Below, in pieces: positions 19,176-62,900 of a stretch of DNA of 64,000 nt. The notes under the pieces are model-generated. The model searched no databases. It was not told the origin of the DNA and was given only the letters and a program-made list of their open reading frames with translations. Location of the stretch: positions 21,832 through 85,831 of the forward strand of contig BRYA01000162.1 of assembly GCA_030267965.1 (NCBI GenBank), read 5' to 3'. A program made the translations under genes and the position numbers. This DNA is from Triparma columacea. Taxonomy: Eukaryota > Sar > Bolidophyceae > Parmales > Triparmaceae. Positions within the stretch are counted from its first letter, which is position 1, and the number at the start of each line of letters is the position of its first letter.

Positions 19176-21188
19176 TCACAGAAACTCCAGAATTACTCTC
19201 CACAAAACTTTCGGGATCTTCTCACGTGCCTCACTTTCCCTTAGCGGTGGGGCTTCAACTCCGTCAGTTCGCTTCCGCTTCCTAGCCGATCTCCTGGGTG
19301 GATCCTCCACGTGATCCCAGGTTCCCTTGAGGCACAGCAGAGCGTTGACGCGTTCCGTCACAGCGATTTTGCGGTGCCACCTATAATGGAGGAGGTCCTC
19401 GACAGTGGAAATATTTTGATCCGCCGCGGCAGCGATTAGGGCGGTGCAGTCCAAGAAGCAGTTATCACCGATGGAGACAGCGGGAGATAGACTGAGTTTC
19501 GTCAGGGCGGAGCAATCCCTGAAGGCGGCAAAGCCAATCGACGTCACTGAGTCCGGGATGGTGACGGCCGTGAGGGAGGAGCAGTAGGAGAAGGCATAAC
19601 TGCCAATCTCTGTCACTCCGTCCGGGATGGTGATGGCAGTGAGGGAGGAGCAACTGTGGAAGGCGCCATCGCCAATCGTCGTCACTGTGTCCGGGATTGT
19701 GATGGCCGTGAGGGAGGAGCAATCTCTGAAGGCGTCTTCGCCAATTATCGTCACTCCGTCTGGGATGATGACGGCCGTGAGGGAGGAGCATCCAGAGAAG
19801 GCGAAATCACCAATCTCTGTCATTCCGTCCGGGATGGTGATGGCCGTGAGGGAGGAGCAGTCTTCGAAAGCATTACTGTCAATCGTTGTCACTGAGTCCG
19901 GGATTGTGATGGCCGTGAGGGAGGAGCATCCTTCGAAGGCGGCACGGCCAATCGACGTCACTCCATCTGGGATTGTGATGGTCGTGAGTGAAGACCAATA
20001 GCAGAAGGCGCGTTCGCCAATCATTGTCACTCCGTCCGAGATGGTGATGGCCGTGAGGGAGGAGCATTCGTAGAAGGCGTGCAAGTGAATCGGATGGATG
20101 GTAATGGCCGTGAGAGAGGAGCATCCCTCGAAGGCCCAGTCGCAAATCTCCGTCACTCCGTCCGGGATGGTGATGGCTGTGAGAGAGGAGCATTCGTAGA
20201 AGGCATCTTTGCCAATCATCGTCGCTGTGTCCGGGATTGTGATGGCCGTGAGGGAGGAGCATCCGTCGAAGGCGTTTTCGCTTATCATTGTCACTCCGTC
20301 CGGGATGGTGATGGCCGTGAGGGAGGAGCATCCAGAGAAGGCGAAATCACCAATCTCTGTCATTCCGTCCGGGATGGTGATGGCCGTGAGAGAGGAGCAT
20401 CCTCTGAAGGCATCTTTGCCAATCGTCGTCACTCCGTCTGGGATTATGATGGCTGTGAGGGAGGAGCATCCGTAGAAGGCGCCCTTGCCAATTGTCGTCA
20501 CTCCGTCCGGGATTGTGATGGCTGTGAGGGAGGAGCATCCCTCGAATGCGTCCTCGCCAATTGTCGTCACTCCGTCAGGGATGGTGATGGCCGTGAGGGA
20601 GGAGCATCCACTGAAGGCGCTATTGCCAATCATTGTCACTCCAACTGGGATGGTGATGGCCGTGAGGGAGGAGCATCCCCAGAAGGCGTCATTGCCAATC
20701 TTCATCACTCCGTCCGGAATTGTGATGGCCGTGAGGGAGGAGCATTCCTGGAAGGCTTCATCGTGAATCATTCTCACTGAGTCCGGGATGGTGATGGCCG
20801 TGAGGGAGGAGCATCCAGCGAAGGCGCCATTGCCAATTGTTGTCACTCCGTCCGGGATTGTGATGGACGTGAGGGAGGAGCATTTGTAGAAGGCATCATT
20901 GCCAATCATCGTCACTCCGTCCGGGATGGTGATGGCCGTGAGGGAGGAGCATCTGGAGAAGGCGCCCTTGCCAATCGACGTCACTCCTTGTGCAAAAGTC
21001 ACTTCTGTGAGATCACGATTACCTCTGAAGCTCTCTGTTCCGGAGTATACTGCTGTTTTGGGAAGGGAAGAGTCCCCATCATCTAGATTGTCATAGTCAC
21101 CACCATAGTCATCACTATAGTCATCACTATACTCATCACCATCGTCATCACTAGAGTCATCACCATAAGTAAAGTCTAATTCACTCAT
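19176..21188 (-). CDS. BspA-type leucine-rich-repeat protein (LRR_5)
   Basis: A single-exon gene of 670 residues. After an acidic Asp/Ser/Tyr-rich N-terminus of about 45 residues, roughly 25 copies of a 23-residue repeat follow, consensus C-S-S-L-T-A-I-T-I-P-D-G-V-T-x-I-G-x-x-A-F-x-x. This is the BspA/TpLRR type, common in protist surface or protein-binding proteins and often lineage-expanded. One unit near the middle is shortened (AITIHPIHLHAFYEC). The last two repeats are diverged. A basic linker with RRSARKRKRT precedes a tail IPKVLWRVILEFL, reminiscent of a degenerate F-box-like helix. There is no signal peptide, so it is probably intracellular. DNA identity between repeats is very high, a sign of recent expansion or gene conversion, and this keeps two antisense frames open; those are not genes. 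Confidence 0.9.
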   Translation of the reverse strand: MSELDFTYGDDSSDDDGDEYSDDYSDDYGGDYDNLDDGDSSLPKTAVYSGTESFRGNRDLTEVTFAQGVTSIGKGAFSRCSSLTAITIPDGVTMIGNDAFYKCSSLTSITIPDGVTTIGNGAFAGCSSLTAITIPDSVRMIHDEAFQECSSLTAITIPDGVMKIGNDAFWGCSSLTAITIPVGVTMIGNSAFSGCSSLTAITIPDGVTTIGEDAFEGCSSLTAITIPDGVTTIGKGAFYGCSSLTAIIIPDGVTTIGKDAFRGCSSLTAITIPDGMTEIGDFAFSGCSSLTAITIPDGVTMISENAFDGCSSLTAITIPDTATMIGKDAFYECSSLTAITIPDGVTEICDWAFEGCSSLTAITIHPIHLHAFYECSSLTAITISDGVTMIGERAFCYWSSLTTITIPDGVTSIGRAAFEGCSSLTAITIPDSVTTIDSNAFEDCSSLTAITIPDGMTEIGDFAFSGCSSLTAVIIPDGVTIIGEDAFRDCSSLTAITIPDTVTTIGDGAFHSCSSLTAITIPDGVTEIGSYAFSYCSSLTAVTIPDSVTSIGFAAFRDCSALTKLSLSPAVSIGDNCFLDCTALIAAAADQNISTVEDLLHYRWHRKIAVTERVNALLCLKGTWDHVEDPPRRSARKRKRTDGVEAPPLRESEAREKIPKVLWRVILEFL

Positions 21189-52272: not shown

Positions 52273-54957
52273 ATGAGTGAAGTTGCGAATCCCAACGACG
52301 TCGCTTCAGCGAATTCACCAATAGGTACGTCTCCGTCCCCCCCTTCAACGTTGTGTTTTAAGGGTGAGAGAATTGAAAAAAATGCTGTTCAATCAGCCTC
52401 GTTCAGGGCAGGGGTTTCTCATCCAAAACTAGCCTGGTTTGTGGGGGGTGGCCATCTCTTGGGGTTTTCTGCGAGACCTAAACGTATTATTCACGTCTTT
52501 TACCGAAAAACAGGGGGATTAGAATATCAACTGCCAGGTTTTCCCCTGTCTGGTGTGTGGCTCCATTCGGGCTCAACTGTTTCCTTAAACTGGACTTACC
52601 CTCAACCCCTCGAACTCAGCTGAGGCCAAGAGCGATGACATGCAGTCCACTACCCCGACTATCAACAAGATTGCTATTGAAACTTATTTGGCTTCGATGG
52701 GATTGAGGTGAGGGAGACGAGAGAGATGGGCATGCACAAAATATTGCTTTCCTAACCACGCCCCCCCCCCTCCCCACCCCCATACAGTGACAACGGGAAG
52801 GTGTTATCGCCAGAAAAGTGGGAACACGTATCGAGGGAGAATTCGTTCAACGCGAAAGGGGGTAATGTGGCGCAATCTCCCTCGTTGAGTGCAAAGTCGA
52901 CGTCCCCAAGGCCTCTCAGAGAGCCTGTGGGGTTGCAGAATAACGGCGTGCCCATCTCCCCCGTCAAATCCGAAGGGAAGACTAAGGCAAGAATCACGGC
53001 AATCAATCAGCTTTATGATGACATTGAGTACGAGCTGAGTGAGAGTGAAACAGAGGAGGATAGGGGGGAGGCAGAGGAGGAGGCGGGCGACACCTCGGTG
53101 AGAAGAGACAAAGTTGGAATTTTCGTGGTGACAACAAGACCTCGAGGGTTGACTCGGAAGATAACCTCATCTTGTGACTAACGCAACCCTCTCTTACTTC
53201 GCTTCACTCGCTCATCGCAGGAAAGTGGGTTGGACTTGTCCTTGCTTGAGAAGTTGAGCGGCCTCTCAAGCCCGGAGAAGGCGAAGGAGTTACCAAGGTT
53301 ATTAATACACGACAAGGAAGAGGATGGCATTCGATCCAGCCCTCATTTGATGGAGGGTTTTGAAAAGCGAGACAGCGACGAGCTGAACATCGTCGAATCA
53401 GAAGACGAAGTCATCGTGGACTTCTCGGAGTCAGATATTATCGATGCGCCGGAGAGTAGCGTTAGGAAGCTCAGTGACCTCCAACCAAAGAGGCACGCGA
53501 AAGGAAATATTGGACGACAGGAGGAGGAGGGGAGAACGGGGATGGCGCCCGTGCATATCCTCACAGCTAAGCAAGCGAGGAAGGAGGAGAGGAAGGAAAA
53601 AGCGCGCCTCAAGCTCCCGCTCGACCTACAGATGAGGTAAGCAGAGAGGAGACGAAGGGTTGCTTTAGTGCGTTGGATGTTATGATTTATCGCTGACCCA
53701 ATTTGCTCACATACATGTAACACTTCACACTTCAACCATTGCAGGATCGCAAATATCAAGGCAATGACCTCTTCCAACTCAACTAAGAAGAAGAGGGGCT
53801 CCCTGTACGCCACACCTGCTGTCACCGCCTCGCCAGCCAGACTAAGCGGCGACCCCGACGACTTGAGCGAGGTGAGATGAGTGGGAGGTCAATGCTAAGG
53901 AAGTGAAGTGTAGCGAAGTGAAGTGTGGGCCTAAACGACGATATTTGCGACAATGTTACTCCTCCTTTGTCTATATCCTACTCTCCTTCTGACCCATCAT
54001 CTATTGCAGAACGACGTAGACATCCTCAGGAACAACAAGTTGCTAGCAATGGGATGGGACGACGACGAGATGTCTAGCTTATCTCCGATGAAGAGCAAGA
54101 AGGAGGAAAAAGGTGTGGGGGGGTCTCTTGCCGCGACGGCAGTGTTGACAAACCTCCTCGAAAGTGAGGCGGATAGGGCGGACAAGGGTAAGAGGGATGA
54201 CGATGACGACGAAGCTAGTATCGTTGACTCCATCATTAGCTCCAAGTCAGGGAAAAGAAAGTCCAAGAAGGAAAGTGGGAAAATCAAGATTATGGTGAAG
54301 AAGAAGAAGGAGAGGCGACAGCCGTCGCCGCGGAGGCAGTCGTTGGAGAAGAAGGTGGAGGCGACGACGGCCCCGAAGACGAAGGTCGCTGCGAAGGAAG
54401 ACGCCAAGGCTGCCAAGGTCGCTGCGAAGGAAGACGCCAAGGCTGCCAAGGTCGCTGCGAAGGAAGACGCCAAGGCTGCCAAGGTCGCTGCGAAGGAAGA
54501 CGCGAAGGCCGCCAAGGTCGCTGCAAAGGAAAAGGCCGAGGCTGCCAAGATCGCCGCAAAAGAAGATGCCCAAGCAGCTAAGGCGAGCTCTCCGAAGCAG
54601 TCCCCTCCTCCTAAGACCGTCCGCCCACCCTCACCATCACCCTTGCCCTTGGAAGTAAAAACCGTCTCACCCGGGCCCAACGAAGGCATGGTTCTGAAGT
54701 CCCTCGGTCCCGACTACGTCATCGCCATGACAAACTTCAAGCCACGCCAGAGGAAGGAAATCGAGAAACTACTACTCGAGGCGGAAGCGACGTACACGAC
54801 GCACCTGGACAGGAAAAACACACACCTGATATGCAACAAGGAGGAAGGGGCCAAGTGGGAGAAGGCGAAGAAGTGGGGGGTGGAGTGCGTGGAGAAGGAA
54901 TGGCTGTGGGAGGAACAGAAATTGAAGGGGAAAGGGAAGGGATGTTTGATTTCGTGA
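52273..54957 (+). CDS. BRCT-domain nuclear protein with KVAAKEDAKAA repeats
   Basis: Six exons (52273-52324, 52620-52707, 52788-53097, 53221-53636, 53745-53871, 54010-54957) join in phase to 646 residues. Most of the protein is acidic, Ser-rich and disordered (SESETEEDRGEAEEEAGD, IVESEDEVIVDFSESDII). A basic stretch is followed by six 11-residue repeats, consensus KVAAKEDAKAA, likely one long Ala/Lys/Glu helix, then a Ser/Pro linker. The last 100 residues are a single BRCT domain: PDYVIAMTNFKPRQRKEIEK, THLDRKNTHLICNKEEGAKW and WGVECVEKEWLWE, the usual Trp near the end included. BRCT domains bind phosphoproteins or DNA ends in repair and checkpoint control. The arrangement, a charged scaffold with one C-terminal BRCT, is not one I can name. 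Exon 1 (52 nt) and the 295-bp first intron are inferred from phase. Confidence 0.82.
54391..54587 (+). repeat. In-frame 33-nt tandem repeat
   Basis: Six consecutive 33-nt units encode KVAAKEDAKAA variants in the BRCT gene. The first four are nearly identical at the DNA level (AAGGTCGCTGCGAAGGAAGA and so on), and the last two are diverged. This indicates recent tandem duplication. Confidence 0.9.
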
Positions 54958-59907: not shown

Positions 59908-62900
59908 ATGTCAAGATTATGCACTTCTAACCTTCACCAATCCGTACACCCACCACTCAGATTCCAAGATACAACACGAGTTGAGCAACCGCACATGGAC
60001 GTGGAGAATGAACCCCGAGGGGGGAGCGAAGAGGGCGTAGAGGAGACTAATATGCCACAAGTCAGTGCCTCAGTGTCTGAGAATCGACTCTGCGAACCTA
60101 ATATAGGCCGTGACAGGACAATTATCTCAACATCGGGTGTTGATAGGCCTCATGAAGACGCCGGACAAGGTGAGTTTTGCGTCGGGGGTGAAGTTGGAAG
60201 AGCGCCAATCATCTATATCTGTGAACATAGGAGAGATGGTTGAGGAGCGTGTTGGAATGTTATCGAAAATCTCAAAAAAACATCATTATCGCCAACACCC
60301 GCAGACACTGAAAATGATCATGGGGAAGCCAGACGAGGTGAGTAAGCGTCGGGCGCTCGAGGAGGAAAAGAACATTTTTATACTTTAGGAGAAGGGGGGA
60401 GATGTGTTGGAGGACAAGATTAAGTTAGCCACTTTTACTCACTTTCCCTCTTTGTCGTTTCCTCTGCAGCATCTGAGATTTCTCTCGAGGATGCCGGACG
60501 AGGTGAGTTGAGCGTTGAGAGCCGGAAGAGAGAAATCACATATTTATACTCTAGGAGAGAGCAGGAGAGTCGCGGGAGGACGTGTTGAAACTTTGTAGTT
60601 TTTTCTCACCGCCTGCGTGCGGAACGCGCGGAGCCGTTCGCGGAGGGCCTGGCCGTCGGCGTCAAGCTTGACGGGCGGTGGCCGCGGCGCACGCGCGCGC
60701 GCGCCGGTCTGCGGCGACCGCATGGGATCCGTCTCCGGCGACCGCGTGGGTTCCTTCTGCGGCGACCGCATGGGACGCTTCTGCGGCGACCGCATGGGTT
60801 GCGTCTCTGGCGACCGCATGGGGTGCTTCTACGGGGACTGCATGGGTTCCGTCTCCGGCGACCGCGTGTGGAGCGCTTGATATGCTACACAGAAATGAGG
60901 TGCACATGTTGAAATCTCTTCATGTTGACTAACATAACAAACACCATAATCGCCATTACCGCAGACTCTGAAAATGGTCATGAGGACGCCGGACAAGGTG
61001 AGTTGTGCGTTGAGAGCCGGAAGAGAGAAAGGACAATTTGATACTCTAGGAGAGAGCGGGAGAGTCGCGGGAGGACGCGTTGAAACTTTGTATCTTTTTC
61101 TCACTTTTACAACAATGTTGTACCCTTCGCAGTCTCTAAAAGCTCTCACAAGGATGCCAGACTAGGTGAGTTTACGTAGTCGTGCCAACGAAAAGTAGAG
61201 TAATTTGATTGTTCAGGGGAGGGCTGGGAAGCCGTTCTGAGGGAGGTTTAGATTCTTGCCTTTTTTTGACCCTTTTTCACCGAAAATTCCCCCCAAACCA
61301 CCCCCAGAAATTTCTGGCCACCCTCATCTTCAACCTGGATTTGAAAATTTCAACGCCGGCATTTCTGACGATCCCTTAAACGGAGGAGTAGCAGGTGAGA
61401 ATAATCTAAGCGCTATACCGCCTGCTGTCAGGTGCGCAACTCCCGGCGGCCCGACAGTCGGCCTTGTGACTGTCAGCCATGCCACTACCGCCGCTCAGTC
61501 CATGACATTAGATCCAGACGTCAGGAATAAATACCCCCCGCATCCCCTCTCTAGCCCCAATCACACACCCTCCGTAATACGCGGCCCCGTAGATATTGAT
61601 TACACAGCACTTGGACCCGAGCAAGGCAAACTTGTGAAGCTTCTGGAGGACAGAGGAGCCGTTGAAGGCCTCATAGACAACTCTACCGGCGTTGATGTCA
61701 AGATTATGGAGCTCGCTGATGTCTTCCACGACGAGCGCGACAAGATCATTGACTTTTTCCTCACCGATTGTGAGCAGGGCAAGTTCCGAAGGAAGACCCT
61801 CCAGGAGTATGACGAAATGGAAGGAGTCATTCACAGACTCGTCTACTGGCAGCACTACAGCAGCGGGAGTAAGTTTGTAGAGTTTCTCTTCGACGTCAAA
61901 GTCATCTCTCCTGATAAATCGACTAACATTATGGAGTTGGCACCCCTTGATGAGGACAATCTTTCTGATGAGGCAACTGCAAAGCTTGTCGAGATTCTAG
62001 CGTCAATAAAGACCAAGACTGTCAAGCGAGGTGTCATTAAGGGGGAGCTCAGCTTCACTGATTTCGAGTTTGGACAAACTGCAGTCACCATGGTAGGAAC
62101 TCTTAAGGCAGAGGAGAGAGCAACAGAGACAAAATCAGAAGTCGATGTTCGCACATTCAAAAGCTCAAAGAGTGCACGCCCAAGTTTCAAGAGTGGGCGC
62201 CCTAGTTTCAAAAGTGACGGGAAAAGCGACACCAAGTCTGCCTATACCTCACTGAAGGGAATTCTCAATGAGGTCATGGATGAGTTTAGACAGCCTGCTG
62301 TCATTGACGAGAGGAGGAAAAGACACTTTGTAGAGGAGGTCATGCCGAGAGCACCGCCTCTGACAATTGAGGAGGGGGCAATGCTGGAGAGGGTTGGGAG
62401 GCTAGAGAAGGAACTCCACACAAAGGGGAAGAGAGTCAAAGGGACACTGAAGGAGGGCATTGACAAGTTCCTGTGGAGAGAGGGGGACAACATGTGGGGA
62501 GCCTTTGGGGTCACTGTGGACAAGTCAGCAAAGGGTGTATTGGCAGTGGAATTTCTGCTTGACACATTTGCGCTGTCTGAGAAGCACTTCAAAAATAATG
62601 GGAACTTGCCAAGGGCAATAAGAAAAGAATTTGAGGGAACTAGAAGCATGCACTGTCATGTTGGCGTGAAGGTCCCTGCCGCCACCAATCGACTATTTGA
62701 GAATTGGTTTGTGTGGAAGGAGGCTAAATTTGACAATGGCCAGACTGCATACATGCTAGGATTTGTGCCTTTGCGTGAATATTATGGGGCGAGCTTCACC
62801 AACCTTAGCAAGGACGGCTTTGTAGTTGGAGTAACAAGGGGAATCTACATCATCGCCGAGGTTGCCCCAAATGTCTGCAGAGTGACACACATTCAAACAT

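Follow-up and report, generated by a model that had tools for sequence, protein, structure and literature searches.

What are four exon-like units of exactly 33 nucleotides (nt) doing in front of a very long open frame in Triparma columacea, a silica-plated alga (Parmales), and how does such a row of units grow? The units lie in a window of 64,000 nt that is part of contig C161, and the genome searched for their relatives comprised 37.85 Mb. A protein search identified the open frame 3' of the units as TrCOL_g13771 of T. columacea (100% identity, 99% query coverage).

On the plus strand, the gene begins with a lead exon at 59995 to 60169 (ATG at 59995; MDVENEPRGG...GVDRPHEDAGQ), which ends in phase 1 with its donor at 60170. 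Four mini-exons follow: mini-exon 1 (60305 to 60337, type W1, DTENDHGEARR), mini-exon 2 (60470 to 60502, type W2, ASEISLEDAGR), mini-exon 3 (60965 to 60997, type A, DSENGHEDAGQ), and mini-exon 4 (61133 to 61165, type B, VSKSSHKDARL), the final unit before the long exon. The sequence and its computed ends give each of the four a length of exactly 33 nt, a preceding CAG, a following GTGAGT, and phase 1-1. The giant exon starts at 61308, is predicted to encode START-fold modules, and is open to 64000, continuing past the end of the window and of the contig. The introns all run from GTGAGT to CAG and would each interrupt the frame if retained: intron 1 (60170 to 60304, 135 nt) with one in-frame stop; intron 2 (60338 to 60469, 132 nt), intron 3 (60503 to 60964, 462 nt), and intron 4 (60998 to 61132, 135 nt) with two each; and intron 5 (61166 to 61307, 142 nt) with four. 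Intron 3 is of a long form and contains a GC-rich minisatellite of 24-nt period at 60707 to 60865.

An earlier note on this DNA had proposed four 33-nt phase 1-1 mini-exons between a lead and a long exon, and their coordinates and borders are confirmed here. Its estimate of about ten mismatches over 107 nt between the starts of introns 3 and 4 (60503 to 60609 versus 60998 to 61104) proved to be exactly 10, that is, 97 of 107 positions match. This agreement, together with similar same-gene copies at other loci (periods agreeing at 95.8% in C29 and 94.0% in C133), bears out its view that exons and introns were duplicated jointly. The sequences preceding mini-exons 1 and 3, which it also called related, differ at 21 of 40 positions without gaps; a resemblance is visible when a 1-nt gap is introduced. 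One suggestion failed: the start of the long exon, EISGHPHLQPG, is no better a relative of the mini-exons than shuffled sequence (score -8, a value that 47% of 2,000 shuffles attain; 9 of 33 ungapped matches), and we rejected it as a related unit.

A weight matrix derived from the window's four mini-exons found 149 forward-strand and 0 reverse-strand sites at the same cut-off in 33 oriented pieces, so the mini-exon signal is far from chance. The GenBank model of TrCOL_g13771 contains mini-exons 3 and 4 and splices out intron 4. The public model has its start within intron 3, lacks both the lead exon and the first two mini-exons, and toward the end of the window deviates from the open frame; for these reasons it is probably wrong in parts. 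An Rfam scan of the window returned nothing at gathering thresholds. Elsewhere in the window, an unrelated, uninterrupted tandem repeat at 54382 to 54570 also has a 33-nt period (KVAAKEDAKAA on the plus strand), and a 69-nt repeat occupies 19500 to 20987 in about 22 copies; its period of 23 residues would suit a leucine-rich-repeat protein.

The array is repeated across the genome. The 1.2-kb array region had at least 102 matches at at least 40 distinct places, and a protein probe made of the units plus the long-exon start located an array-type long-exon start at 57 places (all 95 candidates scored; counted rows cover residue 34-43 to 105-107). An array precedes all 22 of the long-exon starts that were inspected, and the other 35 would be expected to carry one too. 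The frame stays open for at least 2,200 codons at 31 of the 57 starts, in one case (C161, minus strand) across a masked stretch; some of the shorter frames end at a contig end, the window copy included, and that of C353 meets an early stop.

For the analysis of the arrays, sequences were inspected at 26 of the at least 40 places similar to the 1.2-kb region; the places on C263, C783, C158, C713, C224, C361, C314, C434, C105, C480, C435, C758, C285, and C499 were left out. Twenty of the 26 loci hold a complete array with both lead and long exon (excluded: C304, C467R, C297, C318L, C380, and C439). Complete arrays contain 3 to 9 units, a range in which long arrays are over-represented because C304, C439, C133, C298, and C557 were included for their many matches. 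Seven arrays have 3 units, two each have 4, 5, and 6, four have 7, one has 8, and two have 9. The number thus differs from gene to gene among related START genes, the comparison that the earlier note had proposed, and units have been gained or lost without loss of frame, as it had argued.

Internal mini-exons number 131 across the 26 loci: 109 measure 33 nt, 19 measure 45 nt, and 3 measure 39 nt. This count leaves out a fused exon of C439, the chimeric lead exons of C61, C358, and C318R, and one weak scan match in C467L, which was discarded. Every one of the 131 has a length divisible by three, phase 1-1, AG/GT borders, a final G, and no in-phase stop; a stop in one other frame is present in 121. 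The commonest unit, type A (DSENGHEDAGR), accounts for 79 of them. Type B (VSKSSHEDARR; 20 units) is always the final unit of its array, type C (VSKSKSSHEDAGQDQ and shorter forms; 22 units) measures 39 or 45 nt, and types W1 and W2, with 5 units each, belong to the window gene and four relatives. The 151 introns of these arrays, 112 to 549 nt long, are GT..AG without exception, with donors GTGAGT (115), GTAAGT (25), GTGAGA (9), and two others, and acceptors CAG (148) and TAG (3). Intron lengths take any value modulo 3 (62/45/44), and in only 3 of the 151 would the frame stay open on retention. The minisatellite core of 24 nt is found in 49 of the 50 introns of at least 240 nt versus 1 of the 101 shorter ones.

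Homologues of the lead exon, measured from the codon equivalent to 59995 to the donor, are in frame and free of stops in 20 of 20 loci and begin with ATG in 16. The lead exons without ATG are those of L017 (C145), L030 (C380), L041 (C557), and L012 (C467), with AAG in three and TTG in C467L; C145 and C380 likely have an additional upstream exon and intron. In C325 and C452, intron 1 is 132 nt long, open, and in frame, and would therefore add a 44-residue insert if retained. Two metagenomic ORFs, P0019 and P0030, read through the equivalent place and run straight across intron 1, as genomic DNA would.

Are the units translated? Type A units are under frame-specific purifying selection, with a pN/pS of 0.31 (0.25 to 0.42, bootstrap over loci; n = 79) compared with 0.87 and 1.37 in the wrong frames. 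Restricting the analysis to the 57 unique sequences gives a ratio of 0.32, and a minimum spanning tree gives 0.37. Selection was not detected in type B (n = 20; pN/pS 0.66, 0.38 to 1.19; one wrong frame lower at 0.45) or in the 45-nt type C units (n = 19; 0.70, 0.45 to 1.10; one wrong frame lower at 0.35). Lead exons gave 0.59 (0.54 to 0.68; 20 loci), and the long exon after its first internal Met gave 0.36 (17 loci). The 131 units share common descent and are not independent. The coding case is carried by the frame, the splice sites, the indels, and the selection on type A. On these grounds, the array units are probably coding exons, common to dozens of genes.

It is very improbable that the array is instead tandem satellite DNA with exon-like sequence that is never spliced. 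Type A exons are not clearly more conserved than their introns, as would be expected of coding exons (pi 0.152 in the exons, 0.122 in the introns upstream, and 0.158 in those downstream), and this near equality, like the minisatellite inside the long introns, would suit a satellite. A satellite would not account for the GT..AG ends of every array intron, for exons that are always multiples of three beside introns that are not, for units that chain into a long open frame, or for the selection on type A. Scarcely credible is the idea that a repetitive exon was already present and was then split by mobile introns of the introner type. Introns within an array do resemble one another, as introners would, but their ends are specific to the unit type and travel with their own unit: type A mostly has TAATCGCCATTACCGCAG upstream, type B has CCCCTTCGCAG or a close variant, and type C travels with its own donor side. 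The 26 loci were chosen by array similarity and are therefore little informative on introns elsewhere.

Translation might also begin downstream of the array, at an internal Met of the long exon some 63 residues from its start, which would make the array an untranslated leader. A Met does follow an AQS stretch in most of the loci displayed, and the stretch between the array and this Met is weakly constrained (pN/pS 0.73, 0.59 to 0.90; 21 of 22 loci, those where a motif marked the internal Met). The undetected selection on types B and C and the 4 of 20 lead exons that lack ATG point the same way. A leader would hardly be under in-phase selection in its type A units, however, or keep all 20 lead exons in frame and all 131 units free of stops. 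Distinct gaps in the stretch before the internal Met, few as these events are, are multiples of three in 3 of 3 cases (3, 6, and 24 nt), against 3 of 16 in the adjoining last intron; gaps were counted as distinct intervals and not as rows, 20 rows sharing one event. We consider an untranslated leader improbable.

Among the 13, 27, and 13 matches from protein databases (those new in the last set of 13 being judged from their listing rather than from sequences), no spliced array product was present other than the predicted model g13771. Apart from g13771, the protein-database sequences examined resemble genomic ORFs. The gene models of T. columacea were built with protein hints only, as Ban et al. 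(2023, PMC10328945) state, and g13771 is therefore not transcript evidence.

The product of the giant exon can be outlined from models and profiles. A structure model places a START fold at about residues 589 to 810 of P0001, so that the long exon is predicted to encode a START fold, consistent with the lipid-binding protein that the earlier note had expected downstream. In six other copies, the long exon stops after 2,429 to 2,483 codons. The XK-related family (PF09815) was matched in two stretches of P0042 (Pfam score 32.9 versus a cut-off of 24.8) and in P0005 (29.5), fell under the cut-off in the GenBank models P0002 (19) and P0010 (15.4), and was not found by Pfam in P0004. A PDB sequence search with P0042 gave no match up to an E value of 1.

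The wider START/XK family had at least 152 matches (150 of 393 candidates scored, in 150 rows), and its copies have a consistent position. For the 71 minus-strand copies listed, the distance to the left contig end never exceeds 11.4 kb; of the 79 plus-strand copies listed, the 35 on contigs of known length are all no farther than 14.3 kb from the right end. The 3' end thus faces outward in 106 of the 106 copies checked. Contigs C34, C29, C52, C62, and C48 each carry a family copy and a terminal CCCTAA array. From the contig-end position, the outward orientation, and the telomeric arrays together, it follows that the family is subtelomeric. Of 1,116 matches to telomeric CCCTAA, the first 100 listed place an array at both ends of C70 (75,484 bp) and at one end of 13 further contigs; an array of C22 about 0.6 kb inside the contig end was left out of the terminal count. 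Telomeric arrays and gene copies at so many contig ends suggest very many, very small chromosomes. Ban et al. (2023, PMC10328945) count START among the domains most strongly enriched in Parmales and give a maximum of 141 such genes, in Tetraparma gracilis; their main text does not mention telomere, chromosome, gene family, or intron, and has exon only within Exonerate. Our literature search found no paper joining Parmales with telomeres or bolidophytes with a subtelomeric gene family.

The explanation we favor, and hold to be likely, is that the mini-exons are coding exons of this subtelomeric family, spliced into an N-terminal tail before the START/XK giant exon. An array-type gene would consist of a lead exon, 3 to 9 symmetric exons of 33, 39, or 45 nt, and one giant exon for START-fold modules and, after them, XK-related membrane domains. 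If all units are spliced in, the protein would gain a hydrophilic N-terminal tail, probably disordered, with 11 to 15 residues per unit. As each exon ends in phase 1 with a final G, the junction codon always takes its first base, G, from one exon and its other two from the exon that follows; the unit peptide is therefore independent of its neighbor, and units may be present in any number or order in frame.

Under this explanation, constitutive inclusion of every unit is most likely, which would give each gene a tail of its own length, and regulated skipping could occur on top of it. That mini-exons are instead skipped in varying sets, so that one gene makes many tails in the manner of schistosome micro-exon genes or the 5' exons of troponin T, is possible but rather unlikely. 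Any subset would remain in frame, given that all 131 units are symmetric with a final G, exons of 33 to 45 nt have a size at which skipping is easy, and the automated g13771 model, a prediction, omits units 1 and 2. Against such combinatorial splicing, the donors are strong and uniform (GTGAGT or GTAAGT in 140 of 151) and 101 of the 151 introns are shorter than 240 nt. Strong, uniform donors and short introns favor intron definition and constant inclusion.

How do the arrays grow? Both the exon and its flanking intron are duplicated, as in a symmetric exon array that arises by tandem exon duplication, and equal phase at both ends with a length divisible by three extends beyond the 131 units to the internal exon of 195 nt in C439 (L038, about 1051 to 1245). 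This exon fuses the start of a long exon to the tail of a lead exon and is symmetric, with the frame intact. In C61, C358, and C318R, a different lead exon is joined to a C unit, and two adjacent units of C325 are identical over the exon and the compared flanks. The nearest neighbor of a type A unit is in the same gene in 11 of 79 cases (shuffles: mean 3.1, maximum 11 in 2,000) and in another gene in 68, which argues for exchange or whole-gene copying among chromosome ends. Growth in place alone was rejected, as stronger clustering within genes would be expected than the 11 of 79 found. We thus envisage that exon-plus-intron blocks spread by unequal exchange, both within a gene and between chromosome-end copies. 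The 24-nt intron minisatellite is a possible recombination substrate. It has at least 54 matches on many contigs, several of which also bear the gene family (40 of 284 candidates scored).

By analogy, the arrangement appears to work like additive tandem exon duplication. In tandem exon duplication, an exon is copied beside itself, and the abstracts of PMC9013439 and PMC9741552 treat mutually exclusive exons. In Triparma, by contrast, inclusion of all 3 to 9 units would be possible. A nearer case than mutually exclusive exons is the additive exon array of the collagen type.

Troponin T offers another likeness, with small 5' exons that encode a variable N-terminal tail. TNNT3 is, however, a single-copy human gene with known alternative splicing, and its exons do not form an array of recently arisen repeats. 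According to PMC2447309, its 5' exons are alternatively spliced, belong to one phase class, as the Triparma units do, and are ascribed to exon shuffling. The micro-exon genes of schistosomes, as described in PMC10526429 and PMC4015677, form a multigene family with rows of very short exons that are mostly multiples of three, symmetrical, and droppable in frame. On those descriptions, the Triparma genes share the short symmetric exons (here 33, 39, and 45 nt) and the multigene family, whereas micro-exons make up to 75% of the schistosome coding sequence and the 3 to 9 Triparma units, before an exon of 2,429 to 2,483 codons, are a small fraction. Also unlike schistosome micro-exons, the Triparma units are repeats of one 11-residue motif in what is predicted to be a giant START/XK protein, and their arrays lie at the chromosome ends of a free-living alga. 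Schistosome micro-exon genes are also marked by isoforms from differential splicing and by a signal peptide or membrane anchor on a small secreted protein; for the Triparma genes, secretion and alternative splicing would be conjectural.

Subtelomeric variant families of parasites likewise have many chromosome-end copies that exchange segments; the Triparma family differs in belonging to a free-living alga, and surface display, switching, or immune pressure would be conjectural for it. One might go further and imagine diversification in two layers, in which exchange at chromosome ends sets the mini-exon cassettes and alternative splicing then picks subsets of them, so that the START/XK proteins would form a repertoire at the membrane or cell surface, perhaps directed at viruses or grazers. 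We regard this as speculative and improbable; if true, its logic would be comparable to that of the parasite variant families, in a free-living alga. The arrays themselves amount to a natural experiment, repeated dozens of times within a single genome, on how protein repeats grow by exon duplication, and their varying unit number, order, and sequence would make the rates and rules of gain, loss, and exchange measurable. They also place a large, fast-changing subtelomeric gene family, of a kind best known from parasites, in a free-living relative of diatoms.
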